Shown one piece after another: positions 80 to 9,457 of a stretch of 9,457 nucleotides of DNA; the first letter of the stretch is position 1; each line of letters starts with the position of its first letter. The stretch is from an uncultured Prevotellaceae bacterium. GTDB taxonomy: Bacteria; Bacteroidota; Bacteroidia; Bacteroidales; Bacteroidaceae. The stretch is taken from contig CACYKX010000117.1 of assembly GCA_902775075.1 (NCBI GenBank), positions 1-9,457 on the forward strand. Direction: 5' to 3'. The translations under genes and the position numbers were made by a program. The notes under the pieces are model-generated. The model searched no databases and had not been told where the DNA came from. It saw only the letters and a program-made list of their open reading frames with translations.

Positions 80-502
80 ATGGAAGAAAACAAAAAGAAA
101 AGGACGGGTCGATACCCGAAGAACAACAAGCGGATACACTGTGTTATGGTTCGTTTTGACGATGTGGAATGGGCCAAGTTCCTCACGCTCTACGAGCAGT
201 CCGGGGTCTATGCCAAAGCCGTTTTCGTCAAGTCGCGTGTCTTTGGCGAGACGTTCAAGGTCGTGAAAGTCGATAAGACAATGGTGGACTTCTACGATAA
301 ACTGTCATCATTCCACGCTCAGTTCCGGGGTGTGGCGGTCAACTACAATCAGGTGGTAAAGGAACTGCGTAGCCATTTCTCTGAGAAGAAGGCAATGGCC
401 TTGCTCTATCGTCTGGAGTCGATGACTCGGCAGATGATGGAGCAGGGACAGCAGATAGTGGCATTGGCAAAGGAGGCAAGAGAACGATGGTTGCAAAGAT
501 AA
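80..502 (+). CDS. mobA: MobA, relaxosome accessory protein (MobC/RHH-like)
   Basis: A 140-residue basic protein resembling MobA of CTnDOT-type Bacteroidales conjugative transposons. Such proteins bind oriT and help the relaxase melt and nick the DNA. Residues 1-18 are a Lys/Arg-rich tail. Residues about 19-60 (a strand with VMVRF, then helices) look like the ribbon-helix-helix part of bacterial mobilization accessory proteins. The segment GVAVNYNQ near residue 84 matches the GxxxNQ-type helix start of that family, and a helical stretch runs to the end. It is the first of three mob genes and overlaps mobB by 16 nt, suggesting translational coupling. The ATG at 80 is the first start in frame and follows an AT-rich leader. 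The family call is from resemblance alone. Confidence 0.82.
   Translation: MEENKKKRTGRYPKNNKRIHCVMVRFDDVEWAKFLTLYEQSGVYAKAVFVKSRVFGETFKVVKVDKTMVDFYDKLSSFHAQFRGVAVNYNQVVKELRSHFSEKKAMALLYRLESMTRQMMEQGQQIVALAKEARERWLQR
471..476 (+). promoter_or_regulatory. Shine-Dalgarno-like site for mobB inside mobA
   Basis: AGGAGG lies 10 bases before the mobB ATG at 487, inside the last codons of mobA. A perfect Shine-Dalgarno is not usual for Bacteroidales, where AT-rich leaders are common, so it may be partly a by-product of the Lys-Glu-Ala coding there. It supports 487 as the mobB start and coupling of the two genes. Confidence 0.45.
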
Positions 503-1788
503 CGATTGGTAGTTCCCTTTTCGGTGCCATCAAGTATAATGCCGACAAGGTGAACATGGGGAAAGGCCAGTTGCTGGACACTAACAAGGTGTTCAATAAC
601 GGTGACGGTAAGGTCGATGTTGTACAGGTGTTGGCAGATTTCGAAAAGCGGATGCCCAGACAGATGCGGACGGAAAAGCCTGTCATCCACATCTCGCTCA
701 ATCCCCATCCTGATGATAGGTTGACGGACGGGGAACTGACACAGATGGCGCATGAGTATATGCAGCGCATGGGTTATGGCGACCAGCCCTATATCATCGT
801 CAAGCATGAGGATATAAACCGCCACCATCTGCATATCGTTTCCGTCCGTGTAGACGAGCAGGGCAAGCGTATTAAAAGCGACTTCACAAAACGGAGAAGC
901 CTTGCCATCATCAGGGACTTTGAACAGAGATACGGACTGCATCATGGCAACGAGCGAGAAGAGGAAAGACTGTCCAACCGCATCCCGCCGGTCAATCCTT
1001 CCGAGGGGGACATCAAGAAGCAGGTGGGCAATACGGTCAAGGCCGTGTTCCACGACTATCAGTTTCAGACCATTGGCGAACTTCGCGCACTATTGTCGCT
1101 CTATAACCTGACTGTCGAAGAAGTTAGGGGCAATGTCAGAGGTGAGGACTATAATGGTCTTGTTTATTCTGTCATTGATGCCGATAGCAATAAGGTTGGC
1201 AATCCGTTCAAGTCATCCCTGTTTGGCAAGTCCGTTGGCTATGAGGCATTGCAGAAAAAGGCTGCATTCTCAAAGAAGAACATCAAGGATAAGAATCTGA
1301 CTGAGCCGACCAGAAAAAACTTGGAGTATGCGCTTAGACGGACTTACGACAAGGAGGAGTTTGTCAGGATGCTCAAAGAGAAAGGCATTGATTGCGTCTT
1401 CCGCTATACAGACGAAGGCAGGATCTACGGTGCTACGTTCATTGACCATCGTACCCATTGTGTCCTCAATGGTTCCCGGATGGGCAAGGTTTTCTCTGCC
1501 AATGCGCTTGAACAGCACTTCAATACGCCGTCAGAGGAACAGATTCCTTTCAAGGAAAAGGAAGAACAGGAGGAACAGCCGAATACTGGCAGCACATCGG
1601 CAGAAGGACTTCAACAAACCACTTCTCACGATGAGCAGGAACATTACGAAAGCAAAGGCGGTTTCGCATCATTCCTTGATGCTCTTGACATCCTCAATAC
1701 CGACAATCCTGTCACTGATGCAGAGGAAGAGGCATTCCGTCGCAGGTTCCAGCGCAAGAGGAAAAAGCGTCGTAGCCCGAGACTTTAA
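487..1788 (+). CDS. mobB: MobB relaxase (mobilization nuclease)
   Basis: A 433-residue relaxase that would cut one strand at oriT and stay bound to the 5' end during transfer. The N-terminal half carries the relaxase/mobilization nuclease signature: a strand with VIHISLNP (66-73), then HEDINRHHLHIV (107-118), the histidine triad that holds the metal ion (H107, H113 or H114, H116). Tyr17 in AIKYN is the best candidate for the nucleophile; this is inferred from its N-terminal place, as in MOBP-like enzymes. The C-terminal part from about residue 345 is acidic and low in complexity, and it ends in a very basic tail (RRRFQRKRKKRRS) that could bind DNA. Length and motif order fit CTnDOT-type MobB. 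It lies between mobA (16-nt overlap) and mobC (40-nt gap). Confidence 0.88.
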   Translation: MVAKITIGSSLFGAIKYNADKVNMGKGQLLDTNKVFNNGDGKVDVVQVLADFEKRMPRQMRTEKPVIHISLNPHPDDRLTDGELTQMAHEYMQRMGYGDQPYIIVKHEDINRHHLHIVSVRVDEQGKRIKSDFTKRRSLAIIRDFEQRYGLHHGNEREEERLSNRIPPVNPSEGDIKKQVGNTVKAVFHDYQFQTIGELRALLSLYNLTVEEVRGNVRGEDYNGLVYSVIDADSNKVGNPFKSSLFGKSVGYEALQKKAAFSKKNIKDKNLTEPTRKNLEYALRRTYDKEEFVRMLKEKGIDCVFRYTDEGRIYGATFIDHRTHCVLNGSRMGKVFSANALEQHFNTPSEEQIPFKEKEEQEEQPNTGSTSAEGLQQTTSHDEQEHYESKGGFASFLDALDILNTDNPVTDAEEEAFRRRFQRKRKKRRSPRL

Positions 1789-1828
1789 CCAGAGAACAAT
1801 AGTATCACCAATTTAATTCAAATGTATT

Positions 1829-3832
1829 ATGCAACAAGAAGATGATTTGAGGGCATTGGCGAAAATCATGGATTTTCTCCGTGCCGTGAGTATTATTCTC
1901 GTAGTGATGAACGTCTATTGGTACTGCTATGCCAGTATCGTGGAGTGGCACCTGAACATCGGTGTGGTTGACCGCATCATGATGAACTTCAACCGCACCG
2001 CAGGGCTGTTTCATTCCACGCTCTACACAAAACTATTCTCTGTTCTTCTCTTGGCCCTGTCGTGCATGGGAACGAAAGGCGTGAAGGAGGAAAAGATTAC
2101 TTGGAAACACATTGGCATAGCACTGGCAATAGGCTTTATCCTGTTTTTCCTCAACTGGTGGATTCTTAACCTGCCATTACCCTTTGAGTTCTGCACAGCC
2201 CTGTATGTCCTGACGCTGACCCTCGGCTATATCGGTCTGCTGATGGGTGGCCTGTGGATGAGCCGTCTGCTTCAGAACAACCTCATGGATGATGTGTTTA
2301 ACAACGAGAACGAATCGTTTATGCAGGAAACCCGTCTGATGGAGAACGAGTATTCCGTCAATCTGCCGACACGCTTCTACTACAAAAAGAAGTGGCACAA
2401 GGGCTGGATTAACGTGGTCAATCCCTTCCGTGCCACCATTGTACTCGGAACACCAGGTAGTGGTAAATCGTATGCCATCGTCAACAACTTCATCAAACAG
2501 CAGATAGAGAAAGGCTATTCGCTCTATTGCTACGATTACAAGTACCCGGATTTGTCAATGATAGCCTATAATCACCTGATGAATCACATGGATAGTTATA
2601 AGGTAAAGCCGAAGTTCTATGTGATTAACTTCGATGACCCGCGCAGGAGTCACCGCTGCAATCCCATTCACCCAGATTTCATGACAGATATATCAGATGC
2701 CTACGAGTCTGCATATACTATCATGCTTAACCTCAACAAGACATGGGTGCAGAAGCAGGGAGATTTCTTCGTAGAGTCGCCTATCATCCTGTTTGCTGCC
2801 ATCATTTGGTTCCTCCGTCTCTATGAAGATGGTAAGTATTGCACATTCCCCCACGCCGTTGAACTATTGAATCAGAAATACGAGGATATATTTCCGATTC
2901 TTTCCAGTTATCCCGAACTGGAAAACTACATGTCCCCGTTCATCGACGCATGGCAGGGAGGTGCCGCAGACCAGTTACAAGGTCAGATAGCATCTGCCAA
3001 GATTCCTCTGTCCCGAATGATTTCCCCTCAACTTTATTGGGTGATGTCTGCCAGTGAGTTCACGCTCGACATAAACAATCCCAATGAACCGAAAATCCTG
3101 TGTGTCGGCAATAATCCCGACCGTCAAAACATCTACGGTGCAGCCCTCGGCCTGTATAACAGCCGTATCGTCAAACTCATCAATAAGAAGGGAATGCTAA
3201 AGTCTTCGGTTATCATTGACGAGTTGCCCACCATCTATTTCAAGGGACTTGACAACCTCATTGCCACCGCACGAAGCAACAAGGTTGCCGTCTGTCTCGG
3301 TTTTCAAGATTTTAGCCAATTAGTCCGTGACTATGGTGATAAGGAGGCAAAGGTGGTACAGAATACGGTAGGCAACATCTTCAGTGGTCAGGTCGTAGGT
3401 GAAACAGCCAAAACTCTGAGTGAGCGTTTCGGCAAAGTCCTTCAAAATCGCCAGTCCATGACGATTAACCGTCAGGATACATCCACCTCCATCAATACAC
3501 AAATGGACAGTCTGATTCCAGCCAGCAAAATTTCTGGCTTAACCCAAGGAATGTTTGTCGGTGCTGTCTCAGACAACTTCGACGAACGCATCGACCAAAA
3601 GATCTTCCATGCAGAAATAGTTGTCGATACCGAGAAAGTTTCCAAAGAAACCAAAGCTTACAAGCCAATCCCCATTATCACTGATTTCACTGATGAAAAC
3701 GGTAATGATAATATGGATCAGATGGTCAAAGAAAACTATATACAAATAAAAAAAGATGTTAAGGATATTGTGACTAATGAACTAAAACGTATCGCTGAGG
3801 ATCCTGATTTAGCACATTTAACAAAGAAATGA
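1829..3832 (+). CDS. mobC: MobC, VirD4/TraG-type coupling ATPase
   Basis: A 667-residue type IV coupling protein that links the relaxosome to the mating channel and pumps DNA. The N-terminus has about four membrane segments (roughly 18-36, 66-80, 95-114, 122-146). The cytoplasmic ATPase follows, with Walker A GTPGSGKS (207-214) and Walker B with SSVIIDELP (459-467, D464 and E465). A GFQDFSQL segment (491-498) sits where TraG/TraD proteins have their conserved Gln motif. This is the architecture of Bacteroidales MobC/TraG proteins, and the length is full. It is the last gene of the mob unit; a strong stem-loop begins two bases after its stop. No frameshift is seen. Confidence 0.9.
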   Translation: MQQEDDLRALAKIMDFLRAVSIILVVMNVYWYCYASIVEWHLNIGVVDRIMMNFNRTAGLFHSTLYTKLFSVLLLALSCMGTKGVKEEKITWKHIGIALAIGFILFFLNWWILNLPLPFEFCTALYVLTLTLGYIGLLMGGLWMSRLLQNNLMDDVFNNENESFMQETRLMENEYSVNLPTRFYYKKKWHKGWINVVNPFRATIVLGTPGSGKSYAIVNNFIKQQIEKGYSLYCYDYKYPDLSMIAYNHLMNHMDSYKVKPKFYVINFDDPRRSHRCNPIHPDFMTDISDAYESAYTIMLNLNKTWVQKQGDFFVESPIILFAAIIWFLRLYEDGKYCTFPHAVELLNQKYEDIFPILSSYPELENYMSPFIDAWQGGAADQLQGQIASAKIPLSRMISPQLYWVMSASEFTLDINNPNEPKILCVGNNPDRQNIYGAALGLYNSRIVKLINKKGMLKSSVIIDELPTIYFKGLDNLIATARSNKVAVCLGFQDFSQLVRDYGDKEAKVVQNTVGNIFSGQVVGETAKTLSERFGKVLQNRQSMTINRQDTSTSINTQMDSLIPASKISGLTQGMFVGAVSDNFDERIDQKIFHAEIVVDTEKVSKETKAYKPIPIITDFTDENGNDNMDQMVKENYIQIKKDVKDIVTNELKRIAEDPDLAHLTKK

Positions 3833-3833
3833 T

Positions 3834-3871
3834 TTTAGGGGATGTGCTTTTTGTTGAGCACATCCCCTAAA
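3834..3871. terminator. perfect 15-bp stem-loop between convergent operons
   Basis: The left arm (3834-3848, starting TTTAGGGGATG) pairs base for base with the right arm (3857-3871), leaving an 8-base loop. It lies between the mobC stop and the converging lipoprotein gene, so it probably ends transcription from both sides. Neither strand has a clean run of T directly after the stem: the + strand continues AGATTCC, omitting the pairing A, and the - strand continues with a short ATCATTTC-like run. It is therefore not a textbook intrinsic terminator and could also act as a 3'-end RNA stabiliser. Confidence 0.65.
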
Positions 3872-3924
3872 GATTCCAAAAAATCGAGAACCATACATAG
3901 AGTTGCAAACCGAGATTTAAATTG

Positions 3925-3942
3925 CCATCTGTTTAATGATGG
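3925..3942 (-). terminator. weak hairpin downstream of the lipoprotein gene
   Basis: CCATC (3925-3929) can pair with GATGG (3938-3942) around an 8-base loop, about 30 bases past the lipoprotein stop on the - strand, followed by an A/T-rich run. The stem is short and could arise by chance. The stronger stem-loop at 3834-3871 is the better terminator. The rest of 3872-3973 shows nothing recognisable. Confidence 0.2.
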
Positions 3943-3973
3943 ATATTTAACAATGGCTATACAATAGAGATAC

Positions 3974-4429
3974 TTAATATAATCTCCACGGCAAATAATC
4001 ATCTCCGCATTTCCACTCACGCCAGAAATCCCAAATGTGTTCAATCATTAAGTCCGTCTGAAGTGAGGTATGCACTATATTCCCATTTTTATCATAGATT
4101 ACTTTGATATTCTGTTCAAATGATTTGAATGGAACTTTTACCTTTGCAATCCTTCCAATAGCATTTTTAGGATTTTTGTTATCATCTAATACGGTACCAA
4201 AATCAGGTTTTTCTTCAGAACGATAGTTCCCATTGCGCAGCATATCAGAAACGGCATTAAATGGATCATAAATACTGTCCAATTTGCTAATGCTGATGAT
4301 TTTGACTTTTGTTGCAGGATAATGAGTCTGCAGGAACTCTTCTAATTGCGCTTCTTCCTCAGACTTCATACATCCAGTTATTAACAATAAAGCCAAACAG
4401 ATTATTACATTGATAATTATATTCTTCAT
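3974..4429 (-). CDS. small predicted lipoprotein, unknown function
   Basis: A 151-residue protein with a lipoprotein signal peptide: Lys2, a hydrophobic stretch at about 4-18, and the lipobox I-T-G-C with Cys20 as the lipidated residue. The next residues (MKSEEE) are acidic, resembling the lipoprotein export signal that sends Bacteroidetes lipoproteins to the cell surface. The remaining ~130 residues are soluble, with no recognised domain; they end in an aromatic-rich stretch (WDFWREW, then PWRLY). The start overlaps the stop of the adaptor gene in an ATGA arrangement, so it is translated with the export genes. As the last gene of a peptide operon it might protect the producer, help export, or hold the product at the surface. 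None of these is shown by the sequence. Confidence 0.75.
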   Translation of the reverse strand: MKNIIINVIICLALLLITGCMKSEEEAQLEEFLQTHYPATKVKIISISKLDSIYDPFNAVSDMLRNGNYRSEEKPDFGTVLDDNKNPKNAIGRIAKVKVPFKSFEQNIKVIYDKNGNIVHTSLQTDLMIEHIWDFWREWKCGDDYLPWRLY

Positions 4430-4908
4430 TTTCTGATAATTTGTTGTAAGATTGTTTTGTTATTGATTATTGTTGTCGAATGGACTTTCATATTTTCCTT
4501 TAATCTGTACTTCTTTATATCATCATTACTAATATAAGTATAGGCATGAAAGAAATTTTCTCCATTTAGTATAACAACATTGTCAGAAATAGAATCAATA
4601 TCACATTCTATAACCACACTTTCTCTACCTTCATATGTTGTTGATACTTGTCTTTTTACTTGGTAATAGTCATTATATCGGTACGGAATAAACAACTCAA
4701 TTATTAGATTATTATGTATTGAATCTGAAGATACGACAATTCCATCCGCTTCAATTGTAAAAGGATACGGAATTTTATAAGTTGCATAACATATGATAGC
4801 AAAAAAAACGGTAACGATCATCGTCCCAGTACGTACTAAAATTGGAGGTATCTGACCCATGACATGCCTTACTTTCTCGCTTCTTAATTCGATCTTCTCT
4901 ATATCCAT
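4426..4908 (-). CDS. short HlyD-like membrane-fusion (adaptor) protein
   Basis: A 160-residue protein that begins like Bacteroidetes HlyD-family secretion adaptors: ELRSEKVRHVMGQIPP at 7-22, then one membrane helix (about 24-43) and a strand reading FTIEADGIV (50-58). In full-length adaptors of roughly 400 residues the lipoyl domain and long coiled-coil hairpin come next; here they are missing. The C-terminus (ENMKVHSTTIINNKTILQQII, around 138-158) resembles the usual last beta-barrel strand and GK-x-LL-x-IF end. The reading frame is open throughout with no sign of decay. It starts 12 nt after the transporter stop, so it is most likely the transporter's partner in the inner membrane and periplasm. 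How it would reach an outer-membrane channel without a hairpin is unclear. Confidence 0.72.
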   Translation of the reverse strand: MDIEKIELRSEKVRHVMGQIPPILVRTGTMIVTVFFAIICYATYKIPYPFTIEADGIVVSSDSIHNNLIIELFIPYRYNDYYQVKRQVSTTYEGRESVVIECDIDSISDNVVILNGENFFHAYTYISNDDIKKYRLKENMKVHSTTIINNKTILQQIIRK

Positions 4909-4920
4909 ATTAACAATAAT

Positions 4921-7119
4921 TCAATTTCCTAATTCCAATTGATTCTTGACTAGATTGTAATATGTCCCTCGCTTTGCCGTCAGGGACTTGTGATTTCCTG
5001 TCTCAACAACCTTTCCCTTGTCCATGACTATTATCTGGTCTGCATTCTTTACTGTGCTTAGGCGATGGGCAACTACCACGACAGTCCTGCCTTTGTAGAA
5101 TGTGCTCAGTTTCTCAACGATGGCACGTTCATTGCTTGCATCCAAAGAATTTGTCGCTTCATCAAGGAAGATGATCTTCGGATTCTTATATACTGCACGT
5201 GCAATCAAGATACGCTGCTTCTGACCTTGGCTTAATCCCATTCCGTCCTTTCCGATGTTTGTATTGAACTTCAACGGGAGAGCTATAACAAAGTCCTTGA
5301 CATTAGCGATTTCGGCAGCCATTTCAAGTCTTTCCTCATCTATCTCGCCATCATCAACCGCAATATTCCTTGCAATAGATTCGGAGAATATGACACCATC
5401 TTGCATGACAACGCCGCATTGCCGCCGCCACCATTTCAAGTTGTATTCGGATATGTTGTGACCAGCAATCGTTATCTCACCACTCATTACCGGGTAATAC
5501 CCCAGCATGAGTTTTATCAGTGTGGTCTTGCCACTTCCTGATGCCCCCACGATGGCCGTGATTTTCCCATCTGGGATATGAATGTTCACGTCCTCAATGG
5601 TCTTCGACAGGGCATGAGGGTCATACTTGAAGTCAATATTGCTCAATTCAATATCATGACATTCATTGTCAAACTCTGTTCTTGAACGATTGTAATCTTC
5701 CTCATTATCCTTCTTGTGAATCTCATTGATACGCTCAAGACTTATCTTTACATCCTGTACGGAATATATGAAGTGCATCAGTTGCTCTATAGGACTGTTT
5801 AACTGGCCTATGATATACTGCACGGCCAACATCATACCAAGCGTAAGACTGCCATTAATGACCGCAGTAGCTGAGACAACGGTAATGATGATATTCTTCA
5901 ATTCGTTGATAAAAATGCTTCCAGCCTCCTGCGTTTGTTGGAGTTTCAGACTCTTCATCTGAATGTGGAACAGGTCTGCCTGTACATCCTCCCATTCCCA
6001 GCGTCTGCGCTGTTCGCAGTCTTGAAGTTTGATTTCCTGCATGGAGGTTAGGAATTGATAGGTTTTATTGTTGTTTGCTGCCTGTTGCTCAAAGAGTTCG
6101 TAGTCAATAACCTTACGACGTCGCAAAAACAGTGCCATCCATCCACCATACAGAATACTTCCAATAAGAAATATTAAGAAGATGAGCCTGTTATAGATCA
6201 ACAGTACACAACTGAACACGGCGAAGCTAATCAAAGAGAATGCCACATTTAACGTCTGCTGTGTCAGGAATGAGTTAACCCGTGAATGATCACCGATACG
6301 CTGCATCAAATCACCCATCAATTTCGTATCGAAGAACGACATAGGAAGCTGAAGCAACTTGATGAAAAAGTCGCTTACCAATGAGATGTTGATGCGCATG
6401 GAGATATGCAGCAAGAGCCACCTACGGATAAAGTCAACCGATGTCCGGCTGAGGGTAATGACAAGTTGGCCAATCAAAATAAGCCAGATGAAGTCTATAT
6501 CTTTGTTTTTGATGCCAATATCGACGATGTTCTGGGTAAGGAATGGCAATGCGAGTTGTAGCAAGCTACCGACAAACAGGCCAAGTATTATCTGGAAGAA
6601 ATACTTTCGATATTGCTTGATATAGCCGAATAAGAACTTGAACGGCTTTTCTGTTCGTGTTTCATGTTCGTTGGTGTTATCGTAAAAAGCCTGAGTTGGT
6701 TCAAAAAACATGGCGATTCCTTTACCCTCGTTGTATCGACCCGTTCCTATCCAATGCTGTTTGAACTCATCCATAGTGTAAGTTATCAGTCCTTTTCCTG
6801 GGTCGGCTATATAGAACTTTTGTCTTTTCTTCACCTTATATAAAACAACAAAGTGATTCTGGTTCCAGTGAAGAATACACGGTAACGTTGCTGAGGATAG
6901 TTCATCTATAGTTAAACGACCACTAATAGTATATAATCCAATTTTAACGGCTGCGTCTCTGATGCCAAGAAGGGATACCCCTTCTTTAGACGCATAACAT
7001 ATATCAGATAAGCACTTTTGATTATACCTCTTACCATAATATTTGCATATCATCTGAATACACGCTACTCCGCATTGCATGGAATCTTTTTGTTTGATAA
7101 ACGGATTCTTATTTAGCAT
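4921..7119 (-). CDS. peptidase-containing ABC transporter (C39 bacteriocin-type)
   Basis: A full-length 732-residue protein that removes Gly-Gly leaders and exports the peptide. Residues about 5-140 are a C39 peptidase: oxyanion Gln10, catalytic Cys16 in MQCGVAC, His89 in NQNHF, and Asp106 in IADPGKG. Six membrane helices follow (about 165-450). The ATPase has Walker A GASGSGKT (525-532), Q-loop Gln573, signature LSQGQ (629-633), Walker B IIFLDE (649-654), D-loop SLD (658-660) and switch His685. All catalytic residues are present, so it should be active. It starts 3 nt after the gwsS stop. The expected substrate is the GG-leader precursor at 9307-9457. The gene body is clearly richer in G+C than its first ~280 bases and than its neighbours. 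Confidence 0.95.
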   Translation of the reverse strand: MLNKNPFIKQKDSMQCGVACIQMICKYYGKRYNQKCLSDICYASKEGVSLLGIRDAAVKIGLYTISGRLTIDELSSATLPCILHWNQNHFVVLYKVKKRQKFYIADPGKGLITYTMDEFKQHWIGTGRYNEGKGIAMFFEPTQAFYDNTNEHETRTEKPFKFLFGYIKQYRKYFFQIILGLFVGSLLQLALPFLTQNIVDIGIKNKDIDFIWLILIGQLVITLSRTSVDFIRRWLLLHISMRINISLVSDFFIKLLQLPMSFFDTKLMGDLMQRIGDHSRVNSFLTQQTLNVAFSLISFAVFSCVLLIYNRLIFLIFLIGSILYGGWMALFLRRRKVIDYELFEQQAANNNKTYQFLTSMQEIKLQDCEQRRRWEWEDVQADLFHIQMKSLKLQQTQEAGSIFINELKNIIITVVSATAVINGSLTLGMMLAVQYIIGQLNSPIEQLMHFIYSVQDVKISLERINEIHKKDNEEDYNRSRTEFDNECHDIELSNIDFKYDPHALSKTIEDVNIHIPDGKITAIVGASGSGKTTLIKLMLGYYPVMSGEITIAGHNISEYNLKWWRRQCGVVMQDGVIFSESIARNIAVDDGEIDEERLEMAAEIANVKDFVIALPLKFNTNIGKDGMGLSQGQKQRILIARAVYKNPKIIFLDEATNSLDASNERAIVEKLSTFYKGRTVVVVAHRLSTVKNADQIIVMDKGKVVETGNHKSLTAKRGTYYNLVKNQLELGN

Positions 7120-7122
7120 ATA

Positions 7123-8088
7123 TTATACAATTATTGAGTATAAGCCATTACCAATTTCTCTCAGATTGTTCGTAACATACATATTATATCTTAATGGATT
7201 ATCCTTAATTTCAATTATACGATCAGCAGTGCATTTCCAAAGTTGCCTATAGGAAGAACTATTGATTATAGAAAGAATGTTCATATCCTTATCCATAATG
7301 TTCCCAAAAGTTTGATTGTTTTTCAAACAGTTTTTGATATTCCCAAATTTATCAATACAAAGGCGTTTATAATAGTAGGGGTTGAATGAATGTGCGAGAA
7401 TAAAATATTTTAGGTCGAAAATGCAATTCTTTGCATAATTGTTATTTGAAGTACAGAGTTCATTATAACTACTCTTGACATAATGAAAGTATTTTCCGCC
7501 AAATGTCTTACTTCTTGAAAAAGGTGCCCCATAGAAAATAATACTACTTATTATGTCTGCCTCTTTATTCTTACATATGTTATAAAAGAGATTCTTTTGT
7601 TTGTAATTTGCAACGAGTTGTGTACTTTTGATAGTGCTATTGTATATTTGAGAAAGCACATACTCTATTTCTTGAGCAGTTATCATTTCGGGTATTCGTA
7701 TTTCCAAGAATTTAACTAGCAATTTATTGATCATGGATAGAGCAGCATTGCTATTATATTGGTGGGAGTATTCAATTACCATGTGTTTTATATGCTCTGG
7801 TGAAGAATAATTAAAATCAATATTGGGGAAGATATCCGTTTTCTGTTTAACTCCGATTATACCTTTGTCTTTAAAATATGAAATGGTTTCTTGAAGCAGA
7901 TCCAACTGGTCTGAATAAATTCTTTCTATTTCGGAGATGCTGTAATCTCCAAATAGGTTGATAAGCGAAATGATACTATCAGTTATGTATGTGATAGTAG
8001 ATTTCTGAGCGTTATAAATGATGCTCGATGTACTTCCTGTTACTATGAAACAATAAGGAAAAATGAAATAATGCAAATTATTTGTCAT
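7123..8088 (-). CDS. gwsS: GwsS-like SPASM-domain peptide maturase, degenerate
   Basis: A 321-residue protein resembling the SPASM-domain partner of grasp-with-spasm systems. Residues about 20-80 (IIYNAQ, then helices, ending DKGIIGV) look like the PqqD-type winged-helix that binds precursor leaders. No CxxxCxxC motif of radical SAM enzymes is present anywhere. The late part keeps the SPASM landmark CIDKFGNIKNC (244-254) and FGNI (261-264). The next cluster segment usually reads C-x2-C-x5-C with an RY pair; here it reads IKDNPLRYNM (294-303), keeping the RY and the spacing but with Ile294, Asn297 and Met303 in place of Cys. It should thus hold no complete auxiliary cluster and may serve as a leader-binding scaffold for GwsG. 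It overlaps the upstream small ORF by 11 nt and precedes the transporter by 3 nt. Confidence 0.75.
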   Translation of the reverse strand: MTNNLHYFIFPYCFIVTGSTSSIIYNAQKSTITYITDSIISLINLFGDYSISEIERIYSDQLDLLQETISYFKDKGIIGVKQKTDIFPNIDFNYSSPEHIKHMVIEYSHQYNSNAALSMINKLLVKFLEIRIPEMITAQEIEYVLSQIYNSTIKSTQLVANYKQKNLFYNICKNKEADIISSIIFYGAPFSRSKTFGGKYFHYVKSSYNELCTSNNNYAKNCIFDLKYFILAHSFNPYYYKRLCIDKFGNIKNCLKNNQTFGNIMDKDMNILSIINSSSYRQLWKCTADRIIEIKDNPLRYNMYVTNNLREIGNGLYSIIV

Positions 8089-8284
8089 GACTGATTACGA
8101 TATTAGAAAATGGAATCGTCGGCATAACGACCCGATACTGTTTTGCTTGATGACATTCACTTATCGTGAACGCATCTTTTCTATGTAGTTCTTTGACATC
8201 CGAGGTCTTCATCTTATCCATTTTATGGTAAAATAAAGGCAACTTACGAAGTTCTTCTTTGCAAAAGATATTGTCTTGTTCCAT
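8078..8284 (-). CDS. small ORF in the peptide operon, unknown function
   Basis: A 68-residue ORF between gwsG and gwsS with no recognised family. It is charged in its first half (many Lys, Glu, Asp and His), has no signal peptide or membrane helix, and ends in an uncharged stretch (VVMPTIPFSNIVIS). It overlaps the end of gwsG by 41 nt and gwsS by 11 nt. A second possible start, ATG at 8221, gives 47 residues; it lies 22 nt after the gwsG stop behind an AT-rich leader, which avoids the long overlap and may be the true start. There is no Gly-Gly leader, so it is unlikely to be a second substrate of the transporter. It could be a small helper protein, a leftover of a larger gene, or not translated. 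Confidence 0.5.
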   Translation of the reverse strand: MEQDNIFCKEELRKLPLFYHKMDKMKTSDVKELHRKDAFTISECHQAKQYRVVMPTIPFSNIVISHDK

Positions 8285-9230
8285 TTTTAATAAGCCATTT
8301 AGCTATAAGTTTCTCTAAATCAAAATTGCAGCGATTGCTTGGTGCCATAAATTGCCCTACGGGATTAACTTCTATGAATGTAAATTCACCATCCACTGTC
8401 TTAATTATATCAAGAGATCCCGTGTTAAGGGATAATTTGTTCATGAATAATTTTATTTTATTTTCTATCTCATAGGGAAATTTAAACGGAATCCATCGGA
8501 TATGTTCAGACCCGAAAATTCTTTTCACATCATCATAATTTTTGTCATCAACTATAATGGCGCTTGCATATATGTTTCCATCCAAATAAAATGCTCTTAT
8601 CTCAAAATCTTTATTGACTTTCTCTTGAATTAAAGAGGGGAAAAATATATCGCATTCAAGTTGAGTTATATCTTCGACACTAATAGAGTTTGTATATACG
8701 TTATAAGTCGTGTCTCTCATAATATAGTAACCAGAGAAACGTATCGGTTTTATTATGGAAGATGGATATTTTGACAAAAAATTCACAAGATCTTGTTTGT
8801 TATTACTTATCAAACATTTTGGCACTTTTAAACCACAATCCTGAGCATACAGAATAGATGTTAACTTGTCAATACTAACATTATAAGGTGCTGGAAACCA
8901 AATCTTTTCTTTTAACAAGAAGAAAATATGTTTAATTAGGTCATTAAGTTCATACTTTAATTCGAATAAAGCTTGGCTCATTGGATACCCAGATCTTAGA
9001 TTCAGATTAATGTTATCTTCAAATCTTCTGAAATAAACACAACGTACTTCTTTTATCAAGTCAACCCCATTAAATATTATTCGTCTATTAGTGATATCTA
9101 TTGACACTTTTGAAGAGTCATAAAGATCTTGCTGGGTGAGTTTCAGGAATGGAGCCTTGTAGTATAGAAGCCAATCAATGACTGGATCCGTACATTGCTC
9201 ATATCCGAAAAAAGACAATATTAAAATCAT
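8244..9230 (-). CDS. gwsG: GwsG, ATP-grasp peptide ligase (graspetide type)
   Basis: A 328-residue ATP-grasp enzyme of the grasp-with-spasm/microviridin-ligase type. In graspetide pathways such enzymes phosphorylate Asp/Glu side chains of the precursor core and join them to Ser/Thr (ester) or Lys (amide). The N-terminal domain carries VYFRRF (65-70), an Arg pair typical of the group. ATP-grasp landmarks follow: SSIIKPIRF (157-165) with Lys161 for ATP, the hinge QEKV (202-205), FEIRAF (209-214), then SLDIIK (272-277) with Asp274 and FIEVNPVGQF (285-294) with Glu287 and Asn289 as metal ligands. The set is complete, so activity is expected. A 12-residue tail (GTRQYLLQRRTS) overlaps the next ORF. 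The ATG at 9230 sits after TAGGA. G+C is very low (about 14 of 60 bases in one counted line). Confidence 0.88.
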   Translation of the reverse strand: MILILSFFGYEQCTDPVIDWLLYYKAPFLKLTQQDLYDSSKVSIDITNRRIIFNGVDLIKEVRCVYFRRFEDNINLNLRSGYPMSQALFELKYELNDLIKHIFFLLKEKIWFPAPYNVSIDKLTSILYAQDCGLKVPKCLISNNKQDLVNFLSKYPSSIIKPIRFSGYYIMRDTTYNVYTNSISVEDITQLECDIFFPSLIQEKVNKDFEIRAFYLDGNIYASAIIVDDKNYDDVKRIFGSEHIRWIPFKFPYEIENKIKLFMNKLSLNTGSLDIIKTVDGEFTFIEVNPVGQFMAPSNRCNFDLEKLIAKWLIKNGTRQYLLQRRTS

Positions 9231-9245
9231 TCCTATCTGATTTAA

Positions 9246-9288
9246 ATTTCTTAAGATACTCCTTTGTTTATGGAGTACCTTAAGAAAT
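9246..9288 (-). promoter_or_regulatory. intercistronic stem-loop between precursor and gwsG
   Basis: Arms 9246-9262 and 9272-9288 form a 17-bp stem around a 9-base loop (TTTGTTTAT on the + strand). On the + strand one pair is an A-C mismatch (9256 with 9278); on the - strand transcript the same position is a G-U pair, so the stem is fully closed only in the sense direction of the operon. It lies 18 bases after the precursor stop and 15 bases before gwsG. RiPP operons often have such a leaky terminator or RNA-stabilising hairpin here, giving more precursor than enzyme. No long U run follows, so a processing or stability role is as likely as termination. Confidence 0.65.
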
Positions 9289-9306: not shown

Positions 9307-9457
9307 TCAGTTCTGTGAACTGGTTCTATGATTGGTTGCGGTGTTCTCATTACCTTGGAAGGTGTCGTTGTTGTCGGAATCGTGATGCTGCGAATCCTCA
9401 GATGGAGTTGTGTCCTGAGCGATTGAGCAAGCCCCACCTTTGACATTGTTCAGTTCG
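9307..9457 (-). CDS. RiPP precursor peptide, GG-leader type (5' end missing)
   Basis: The last 49 codons of a small gene cut by the window edge; the start and most of the leader lie beyond 9457. The visible leader end reads ELNNVKGG, matching the end of GG-Bacteroidales natural-product precursors and the double-Gly site cut by C39 peptidases. The remaining 41 residues would be the core, starting ACSIAQD and including TTPSEDSQ. It has about 11 Ser/Thr, seven Asp/Glu, no Lys and one Cys, as expected for an ATP-grasp substrate forming side-chain esters. TTPSED loosely recalls the microviridin TxKYPSD motif but is shorter. It is the first visible gene of the operon, 76 nt ahead of gwsG. The identification rests on the GG site plus neighbours encoding a ligase and a C39 transporter. 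Confidence 0.8.
   Translation of the reverse strand, partial: ELNNVKGGACSIAQDTTPSEDSQHHDSDNNDTFQGNENTATNHRTSSQN

Follow-up and report, generated by a model that had tools for sequence, protein, structure and literature searches.

In graspetides the nucleophile lies N-terminal and the acid C-terminal (PMC12291112), and the ring patterns have been summarised as interlocked and hairpin (PMC13097080); statements on these two papers and on PMC8939145 refer throughout to their accessible parts. Among the graspetide groups that are poorly characterized, Branch 5, the grasp-with-spasm systems of Bacteroidota (perhaps group 14 of PMC13097080), is described as the largest (PMC8939145). These systems have GG-leader precursors encoded upstream of a TIGR04192-like ATP-grasp enzyme and, as further features shared with the locus described here, an LPL protein, a TIGR04193-like protein, a C39 exporter, an OMP barrel and several precursors per locus. 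For the LPL family of small proteins two roles have been proposed, either as a PqqD-like helper of the SPASM enzyme or as a partner of the ATP-grasp enzyme (PMC8939145). A named product from Branch 5 was not found in the accessible parts of the literature searched. The closest precedent for the peptide analyzed here is corallotide (group 15), where a ring between Lys9 and Asp13 of a KxxxD unit was established by NMR (PMC13097080).

The DNA studied here, in the following called the window, is a stretch of 9,457 nucleotides from an uncultured Prevotellaceae bacterium. It contains the gene set of a Branch 5 locus, namely a precursor gene, an ATP-grasp gene, a gene for an LPL-type protein directly upstream of that for the SPASM-like protein, and a C39 exporter gene (Table 1).

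Table 1. Features of the window, with positions, strand and supporting observations
Feature	Position	Strand	Observation
gwsP, graspetide precursor gene, 3' part	9307..9457	-	49 codons and TGA stop at 9307-9309; 5' end past the window
Leader end ELNNVKGG with Gly-Gly cleavage site	9433..9456	-	VKGG invariant, 25-row alignment
41-residue core peptide without Lys	9310..9432	-	Translation
Optional ring unit S3-x3-D7	9412..9426	-	Asp here in 15/23 homologues
Predicted ring unit 1, T9-x3-D13 (alternative pairing T8-E12)	9394..9408	-	[ST]xxx[DE] in 22/23 homologues
Predicted ring unit 2, S14-x3-D18	9379..9393	-	23/23 homologues
Predicted ring unit 3, S19-x3-D23	9364..9378	-	23/23 homologues
Variable C-terminal tail, core residues 26-41	9310..9357	-	18 distinct tails in 23 homologues; alignment
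17-bp RNA hairpin between gwsP and gwsG	9246..9288	-	-22 kcal/mol, z -8.6
gwsG, ATP-grasp graspetide synthetase, 328 aa	8244..9230	-	TIGR04192 199.5 bits; AMdnB 7m4s E 7.5e-24; model pLDDT 92.8
Small LPL-type protein (KLPLFYHKM motif), 68 aa, probable partner	8078..8284	-	Small ORF here in 11/11 clade loci
gwsS, SPASM-like, 321 aa, no radical-SAM motif, 1/8 conserved SPASM-region Cys	7123..8088	-	TIGR04193 105.1 bits; cysteine table
GwsS N-terminal RRE-like domain, model residues 4-81	7843..8076	-	Predicted model
GwsS radical-SAM/SPASM-like fold, residues 95-320, apparently inactive	7126..7803	-	Predicted model
C39 peptidase/ABC exporter, expected GG cleavage and export	4921..7119	-	PF03412 113 bits, PF00664, PF00005
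Short membrane protein, perhaps minimal HlyD-like adaptor (by eye)	4426..4908	-	No family match
Predicted lipoprotein, 151 aa	3974..4429	-	Signal and lipobox by eye; weak Tim44 matches below cut-off
mobA, mobB, mobC, Bacteroidales mobile element	80..3832	+	NF041324, NF041325, NF041326 above NCBIfam cut-off

The gwsP frame (9310-9456, minus strand) begins within the leader, whose last eight residues ELNNVKGG are followed by the core ACSIAQDTTPSEDSQHHDSDNNDTFQGNENTATNHRTSSQN and the stop codon. The GG leader end of the original prediction is thus in frame. An upstream start and a full leader were also found, in close relatives of the gene. In contig 44 of the genome G001, which is 99.93% and 100% identical to the window over two aligned pieces, the same DNA passes position 9457, crosses a run of 11 N and reaches an in-frame ATG (L004 15326; 61 codons as scaffolded). 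In the alignment, the final base of the window falls directly next to this run, so an assembly gap is what ends the window. The length of the run need not be taken literally, because the corresponding part of the leader in a sister gene is longer. This tandem second precursor (MAKQELVSIADIEKLNASELNNVKGG followed by VCSFTQSTSEEDSEHHDSNNNDTFPVSNPGNAFQY) is complete and lies one gene further upstream in G001; the break was likely caused by the repeated leaders of the tandem gwsP copies. A gap-free homologue, P0016, comprises 67 residues with a 26-residue leader ending in VKGG. Of the 49 residues that it shares with the window, one is different, so that a gene-encoded precursor is at hand in full length, from the leader through the cleavage site to the core. 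That the frame might be the end of a larger unrelated protein, the objection raised along with the original prediction, is ruled out by the continuation in G001, the complete P0016 and the locus L003. A further homologue, P0002, combines the front of the window precursor with the tail of the tandem sister, as would result if copies had recombined or had been mis-assembled.

No known precursor model matched gwsP above its cut-off. P0016 scored 14.4 bits with the GG-Bacteroidales precursor model TIGR04149 and 16.2 bits with PF14406 (cut-off 25 in both cases), in keeping with the earlier remark that no known consensus was recognisable. TIGR04149 matched 23 of the 25 precursor rows weakly (best E 0.015), and the leader gave weak matches below cut-off to generic bacteriocin leaders (TIGR01847, ComC).

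With the composition of GwsG and GwsS as reference, the core is enriched in Ser, Thr, Asp and Glu (19 of 41 residues, p 0.0008) and, as noted before, free of Lys (0 of 41, p 0.035). Taken alone, the absence of Lys is weak evidence. It gains weight because, among the 23 homologous precursors, P0023 alone has a Lys (a single one) in the block up to F25 and the other 22 have none there, despite Lys in 11 of the 23 tails and Lys-rich leaders. As Lys does occur within the units of sister families, its absence was not kept as a defining trait. From this absence it had been concluded that any side-chain rings must be esters to Ser or Thr. Esters are indeed the likely type of link, but "must" is slightly too strong, because the sequence leaves room for a Cys2 thioester or a freed N-terminal amine as nucleophile and because sister families of the same enzyme clade (L093, L138) carry Lys inside units.

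The core can be parsed into hydroxyl residues followed by an acid four residues later: S3IAQD7, T8, T9PSED13, S14QHHD18 and S19DNND23. Three of these pentads (T9-D13, S14-D18 and S19-D23) stand back to back without a linker; the S3-D7 unit is optional, as not all homologues have Asp7. Protein searches yielded 25 relatives, of which the short P0024 and P0025, without a core, were dropped to leave 23. In their alignment the leader is nearly invariant. Invariant core residues in the 25-row alignment are S14, D18, S19, N21 and D23 (S40, D44, S45, N47 and D49 of P0016), and S3, Q6, E12, N22, T24 and F25 are nearly so. It is thus chiefly the acid, hydroxyl and Asn residues of the core that are conserved. 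At position 2, 17 of the 23 homologues have Cys, 5 have Ser, and one has Thr next to a deletion. The window reads TTPSED where SSAED is usual, a one-residue insertion that keeps the spacing because T9 then sits four residues before D13; P0023 lacks unit 1. TTPSED, singled out earlier as the best ring-forming block, therefore does contain one unit, but only one of three or four, and the invariant part lies downstream of it (DSxHHDSxNND). Past F25, sequences and lengths scatter. Of the two fates suggested for the polar second half, a tail is borne out, and a separate conserved ring region is unlikely because this part is so variable, only NGHE remaining in L003. From the arrangement of the units in the core, i to i+4 macrolactones are predicted.

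The precursors beside related synthetases in other Bacteroidota carry the same unit at other periods. The window family has mainly linker 0 and period 5. Five units, mostly with linker 1 and period 6, are present in L118 and in L058, a locus with two precursors. L093, L094 and L120 have two to four units, in most cases joined by a two-residue linker (VD, ID), and L138, on a Hymenobacter canadensis plasmid, has two units joined by VD or TD, the period being 7 in both cases. Across these loci the main period is therefore 5, 6 or 7, whereas the distance from Ser or Thr to Asp remains 4, from which macrolactones between residues i and i+4 are again predicted. For the same reason period-5 [DE][ST] dyads were replaced as the defining pattern, since their distance differs between families; in the window block the dyad statistic was reached by 54 of 20000 shuffles, or by 360 of 20000 when any period from 2 to 8 was allowed. 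In the period-7 cores of L093, L094, L120 and L138 (e.g. SKKKDVD), the second Asp of the DxD linker is preceded, at a distance of four residues, by a Lys, and an extra i+4 Lys-Asp amide may interlock with the Ser esters there. L138 also has ten tandem 47-residue precursors upstream of gwsG (3068-4851).

An offset of 4 between [ST] and [DE] was found above shuffled sequences in the window core (z 2.8), L058 (4.8), L093/94 (6.6) and L095 (3.0). In L118, fetched after the idea had been formed, the offset-4 count was reached by 17 of 5000 shuffles; the L138 cores alone gave no significance (631 and 1185 of 5000). Other offsets are raised as well: offset 9 in P0001 (z 3.1, against 2.7 for offset 4) and L093/94 (3.8), and offset 10 in L058 (3.6) and L118 (3.8, against 3.3). 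That offset 9 or 10 exceeds offset 4 in P0001 and L118 is expected for a repeat. Unit chains are open to more than one parse. Tandem [ST]xxxD units within 0-2 residues, counted with a regular expression set after the cores had been seen, occurred in all 9 clade loci (the clade is defined below) having a small GG ORF as compared to 5 of 39 other loci, or, by ORF, in 35 of 35 (many near-copies) as compared to 5 of 73; in two of the eleven clade loci (L097, L119) no precursor was found. Representatives of the precursor families are weakly similar in BLASTP (L093-L095, E 3e-6; L118-L095, 8e-6; L138-L095, 1e-4; window precursor against the other clade families at best 0.009, with L118). These families are thus not fully independent, and the spacing may be inherited. 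Among 26 hand-picked cores of SPASM-intact loci offset 4 was highest too, at a low z of 2.1, so the unit may not be special to the cysteine-less clade. The cores of L108 and L111, beside SPASM-intact GwsS proteins, contain S-x3-D runs (SGGGD SDSFD; SNSTD), and the i+4 unit may accordingly predate the loss of the cysteines.

The product of gwsG is a graspetide synthetase by sequence and by predicted fold. With 199.5 bits it stays below the curated TIGR04192 cut-off of 230, which is still the best-scoring model. Sequence matches were AMdnB (7m4s, E 7.5e-24) and MdnC (5ig9, 1.6e-19), and the best PDB folds for the model were AMdnB, MdnC, PruB, CdnC and PsnB. E210, R212, D274 and N289 are invariant in 58 rows and E287 is nearly so; we take these five to be catalytic residues. 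For the GwsG tree, as for the count of tandem units above, 60 rows were used, consisting of the window, L003, L138 and 57 stretches chosen from the matches, mostly best-scoring first. The matches were more numerous than these, one source search alone having given 70 places in 54 genomes. Left out were L007-L012 and also L028-L042, which at about 20 to 32 bits were taken by score as ordinary SPASM proteins. In this tree the 11 loci with a cysteine-less GwsS form one clade (support 100/100, 100% of 200 bootstrap trees), of which L093, L094 and L120 are near-copies.

Viral contigs gave no match to GwsG, to the GwsG alignment or to the precursor alignment, nor did a near-search of plasmid DNA give any, and tblastn of GwsG against plasmids matched 34 records, with H1 as the best. 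Two plasmids of Elizabethkingia anophelis (NZ_CP016375.1, H2; NZ_CP071549.1, H3) have an annotated gwsG about 30% identical to that of the window. In 393 genomes of the order the precursor alignment matched G001 alone, and in 200 genomes of the genus it matched G001 and, doubtfully (E 8e-6), a site inside a 1075-residue frame. Depositor labels on precursor or GwsG homologues include Prevotella, Muribaculaceae, a Lachnospiraceae bin and a Phocaeicola candidate species.

GwsS, which goes by the label of a SPASM peptide maturase, likewise falls short of its curated model (TIGR04193, 105.1 bits, cut-off 175). The radical-SAM motif CX3CX2C is absent from the window GwsS and from all 61 GwsS frames (one a 57-residue fragment). 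Eight Cys columns are filled in 20 of 20 chosen intact GwsS proteins, four of them by that choice itself, as the 20 were picked among proteins with the full motif. Within the clade seven of these columns are empty in all 11 members and the eighth is filled in 7; the window GwsS keeps one of the eight and so lacks the cysteines of the SPASM auxiliary cluster. A class of 16 loci scored as partial has CX2CX5C only. The L138 GwsS, likewise without SPASM cysteines, is annotated as a hypothetical protein. In a model built on 18 sequences (pLDDT 80.8, pTM 0.63) the N-terminus adopts an RRE fold and the remainder a radical-SAM/SPASM-like one; the former is predicted to bind the leader. Since gwsS, which lies beside gwsG in 59 of the 60 loci examined (the exception being L137), was retained despite the loss of cysteines, its function must lie at least in part outside iron-sulfur chemistry, and GwsS is probably a partner protein and not a radical enzyme. 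A thioether at Cys2 was also considered and judged unlikely, as 6 of 23 homologues have Ser or Thr in place of this Cys and GwsS lacks the motifs.

By its motif, the small protein encoded between gwsG and gwsS fits the LPL family of PMC8939145. At the place of the LPL gene, the small ORF contains LP[LIVM] in 7 of the 11 clade loci and VPL, IPV, VAP or CPA in the others. The LPLFY motif of the window protein resembles the classic leader motif of the PFFxRFL type. Of the two published roles we favour that of an ATP-grasp partner where radical chemistry is lost and GwsS brings a predicted RRE of its own. The RNA hairpin between gwsP and gwsG has a counterpart in L003 (-19.8 kcal/mol, z -7.3) and may act as an expression-ratio element keeping precursor transcripts in excess. 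An OMP barrel (PF14905) is encoded upstream in G001, L003 and L138. In L003 the C39 exporter frame stops after 125 codons (8110-8487); short frames come next, and then a gene that by eye is ATPase-like. The lipoprotein encoded downstream of the window exporter may, as a guess, be an immunity or cluster-23-type protein. With mobA, mobB and mobC on the opposite strand and, by eye, tra genes further along in G001, a conjugative-type element probably carries the cluster as cargo. Within mobC, 63 bases of the window (1908-1970) are missing from G001; this number is divisible by three, and 21 residues may therefore separate the products of the two mobC genes.

Taken together, it is in our view probable, if by no means assured, that gwsP encodes a graspetide precursor on which GwsG makes a row of i+4 esters with GwsS and the LPL protein as partners, and that the C39 exporter cuts at the GG site. 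GwsS would hold the leader by its predicted RRE and serve, together with the LPL protein, as substrate-binding partner. GwsG would use ATP to phosphorylate Asp and Glu side chains, the activated acids would be attacked by Ser and Thr hydroxyls four residues upstream, and three or four waters would be lost. The expected product has adjacent five-residue macrolactones (17-atom for Ser-Asp) at T9-D13, S14-D18, S19-D23 and perhaps S3-D7. The exporter would then cleave the leader after GG and export the peptide, for whose passage or uptake the OMP barrel may serve. More tentatively, and as a possibility rather than an expectation, the system may represent a distinct subfamily whose string of i+4 lactones is neither interlocked nor hairpin and in which leader recognition is split, the GwsS RRE holding the leader and the LPL protein filling the leader pocket of GwsG itself. 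The acidic peptide would be stiffened by such a lactone string in a way similar to a helix with i,i+4 staples.

The links might instead be of the hairpin or interlocked kind known from plesiocin and microviridin, with the S-x3-D spacing as a by-product of repeat expansion or common descent. Characterized graspetides are described in these terms in the accessible parts of PMC13097080, and the enrichment of offsets 9 and 10 alongside 4 and the weak similarity between precursor families are consistent with it. We nevertheless consider it rather unlikely, as the offset of 4 is constant while the main period is 5, 6 or 7 by family, and as corallotide has single i+4 rings in its repeats.

Two readings that depart further from the i+4 ester row carry much less weight. 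GwsS could still be a redox maturase, the main product bearing a thioether or another link at Cys2 and the ester rings being secondary. The almost constant neighbourhood of gwsS and gwsG and the prevalence of Cys at core position 2 would fit, as would the thioethers suggested for Branch 5 (PMC8939145, accessible parts). Set against the missing radical-SAM motif in 61 of 61 frames, the seven empty Cys columns in 11 of 11 clade members, the homologues with Ser (5/23) or Thr (1/23) at position 2 and the L058, L095 and L118 cores without any Cys, this appears very improbable. The slightest chance is given to a plain GG-leader exported peptide, such as a microcin or pheromone, beside a synthetase acting on something else. 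The C39 exporter and the weak TIGR01847 and ComC leader matches speak for it; however, the only small GG ORFs listed upstream of gwsG at the window's locus are the two precursors, a peptide with an [S/T]xxx[D/E] unit is found upstream of gwsG in L003, L058, L093, L118 and L138, and the conserved core residues are chiefly acids, hydroxyl residues and Asn.

Overall, the window system is a Branch 5-type graspetide system and not a new class. It differs from the Branch 5 systems of PMC8939145 in its [S/T]xxx[D/E] ladder, in the lost SPASM-region cysteines of GwsS, in the position of the cluster beside mob genes and in that GwsG and GwsS both score below curated cut-offs. New here are the pentad ladder with its constant i+4 spacing and the loss of SPASM cysteines across one GwsG clade. 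Neither a contiguous ester ladder nor such a clade-wide loss was found in the accessible parts of the literature searched, although Fig. 5 of PMC8939145 may already show some of the cores; SxxxD or TxxxD was not found in the graspetide literature searched. The constant spacing amounts to one simple ring rule for one clade of the diverse Branch 5, and the cysteine-less clade offers a natural experiment on the 'SPASM maturase'. Located beside Bacteroidales mobilization genes, such peptides can probably move between species.

Several characterized systems share single traits with the one described here. The RRE proteins lasso B1 (6jx3, 5v1u), PbtF RRE (8t19) and SuiB have the fold of the modelled GwsS N-terminus; in GwsS this domain is joined to a radical-SAM-like fold in which the radical-SAM motif is missing. 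Rosaritide depends on a synthetase with a partner and carries macrolactones, both of which are predicted here, but its partner MirC is a PPIase/chaperone-domain protein and not of RRE/SPASM fold, and its rings interlock (PMC13097080). Plesiocin and thuringinin are multivalent with tandem ester-bearing repeats (PMC12291112; plesiocin also PMC13097080), yet have two ester links per repeat, as hairpins in plesiocin, in contrast to one per predicted pentad here. Corallotide comes closest, with repeated units, one i/i+4 ring in each and the nucleophile first. It differs in that a Lys amide, subsequently hydroxylated, takes the place of the Ser/Thr ester, and in its precursor of about 22 kDa from Corallococcus and its TIGR04187 synthetase (PMC13097080). 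As corallotide contains i+4 rings in repeats, albeit as Lys amides, such rings are within reach of a graspetide synthetase.
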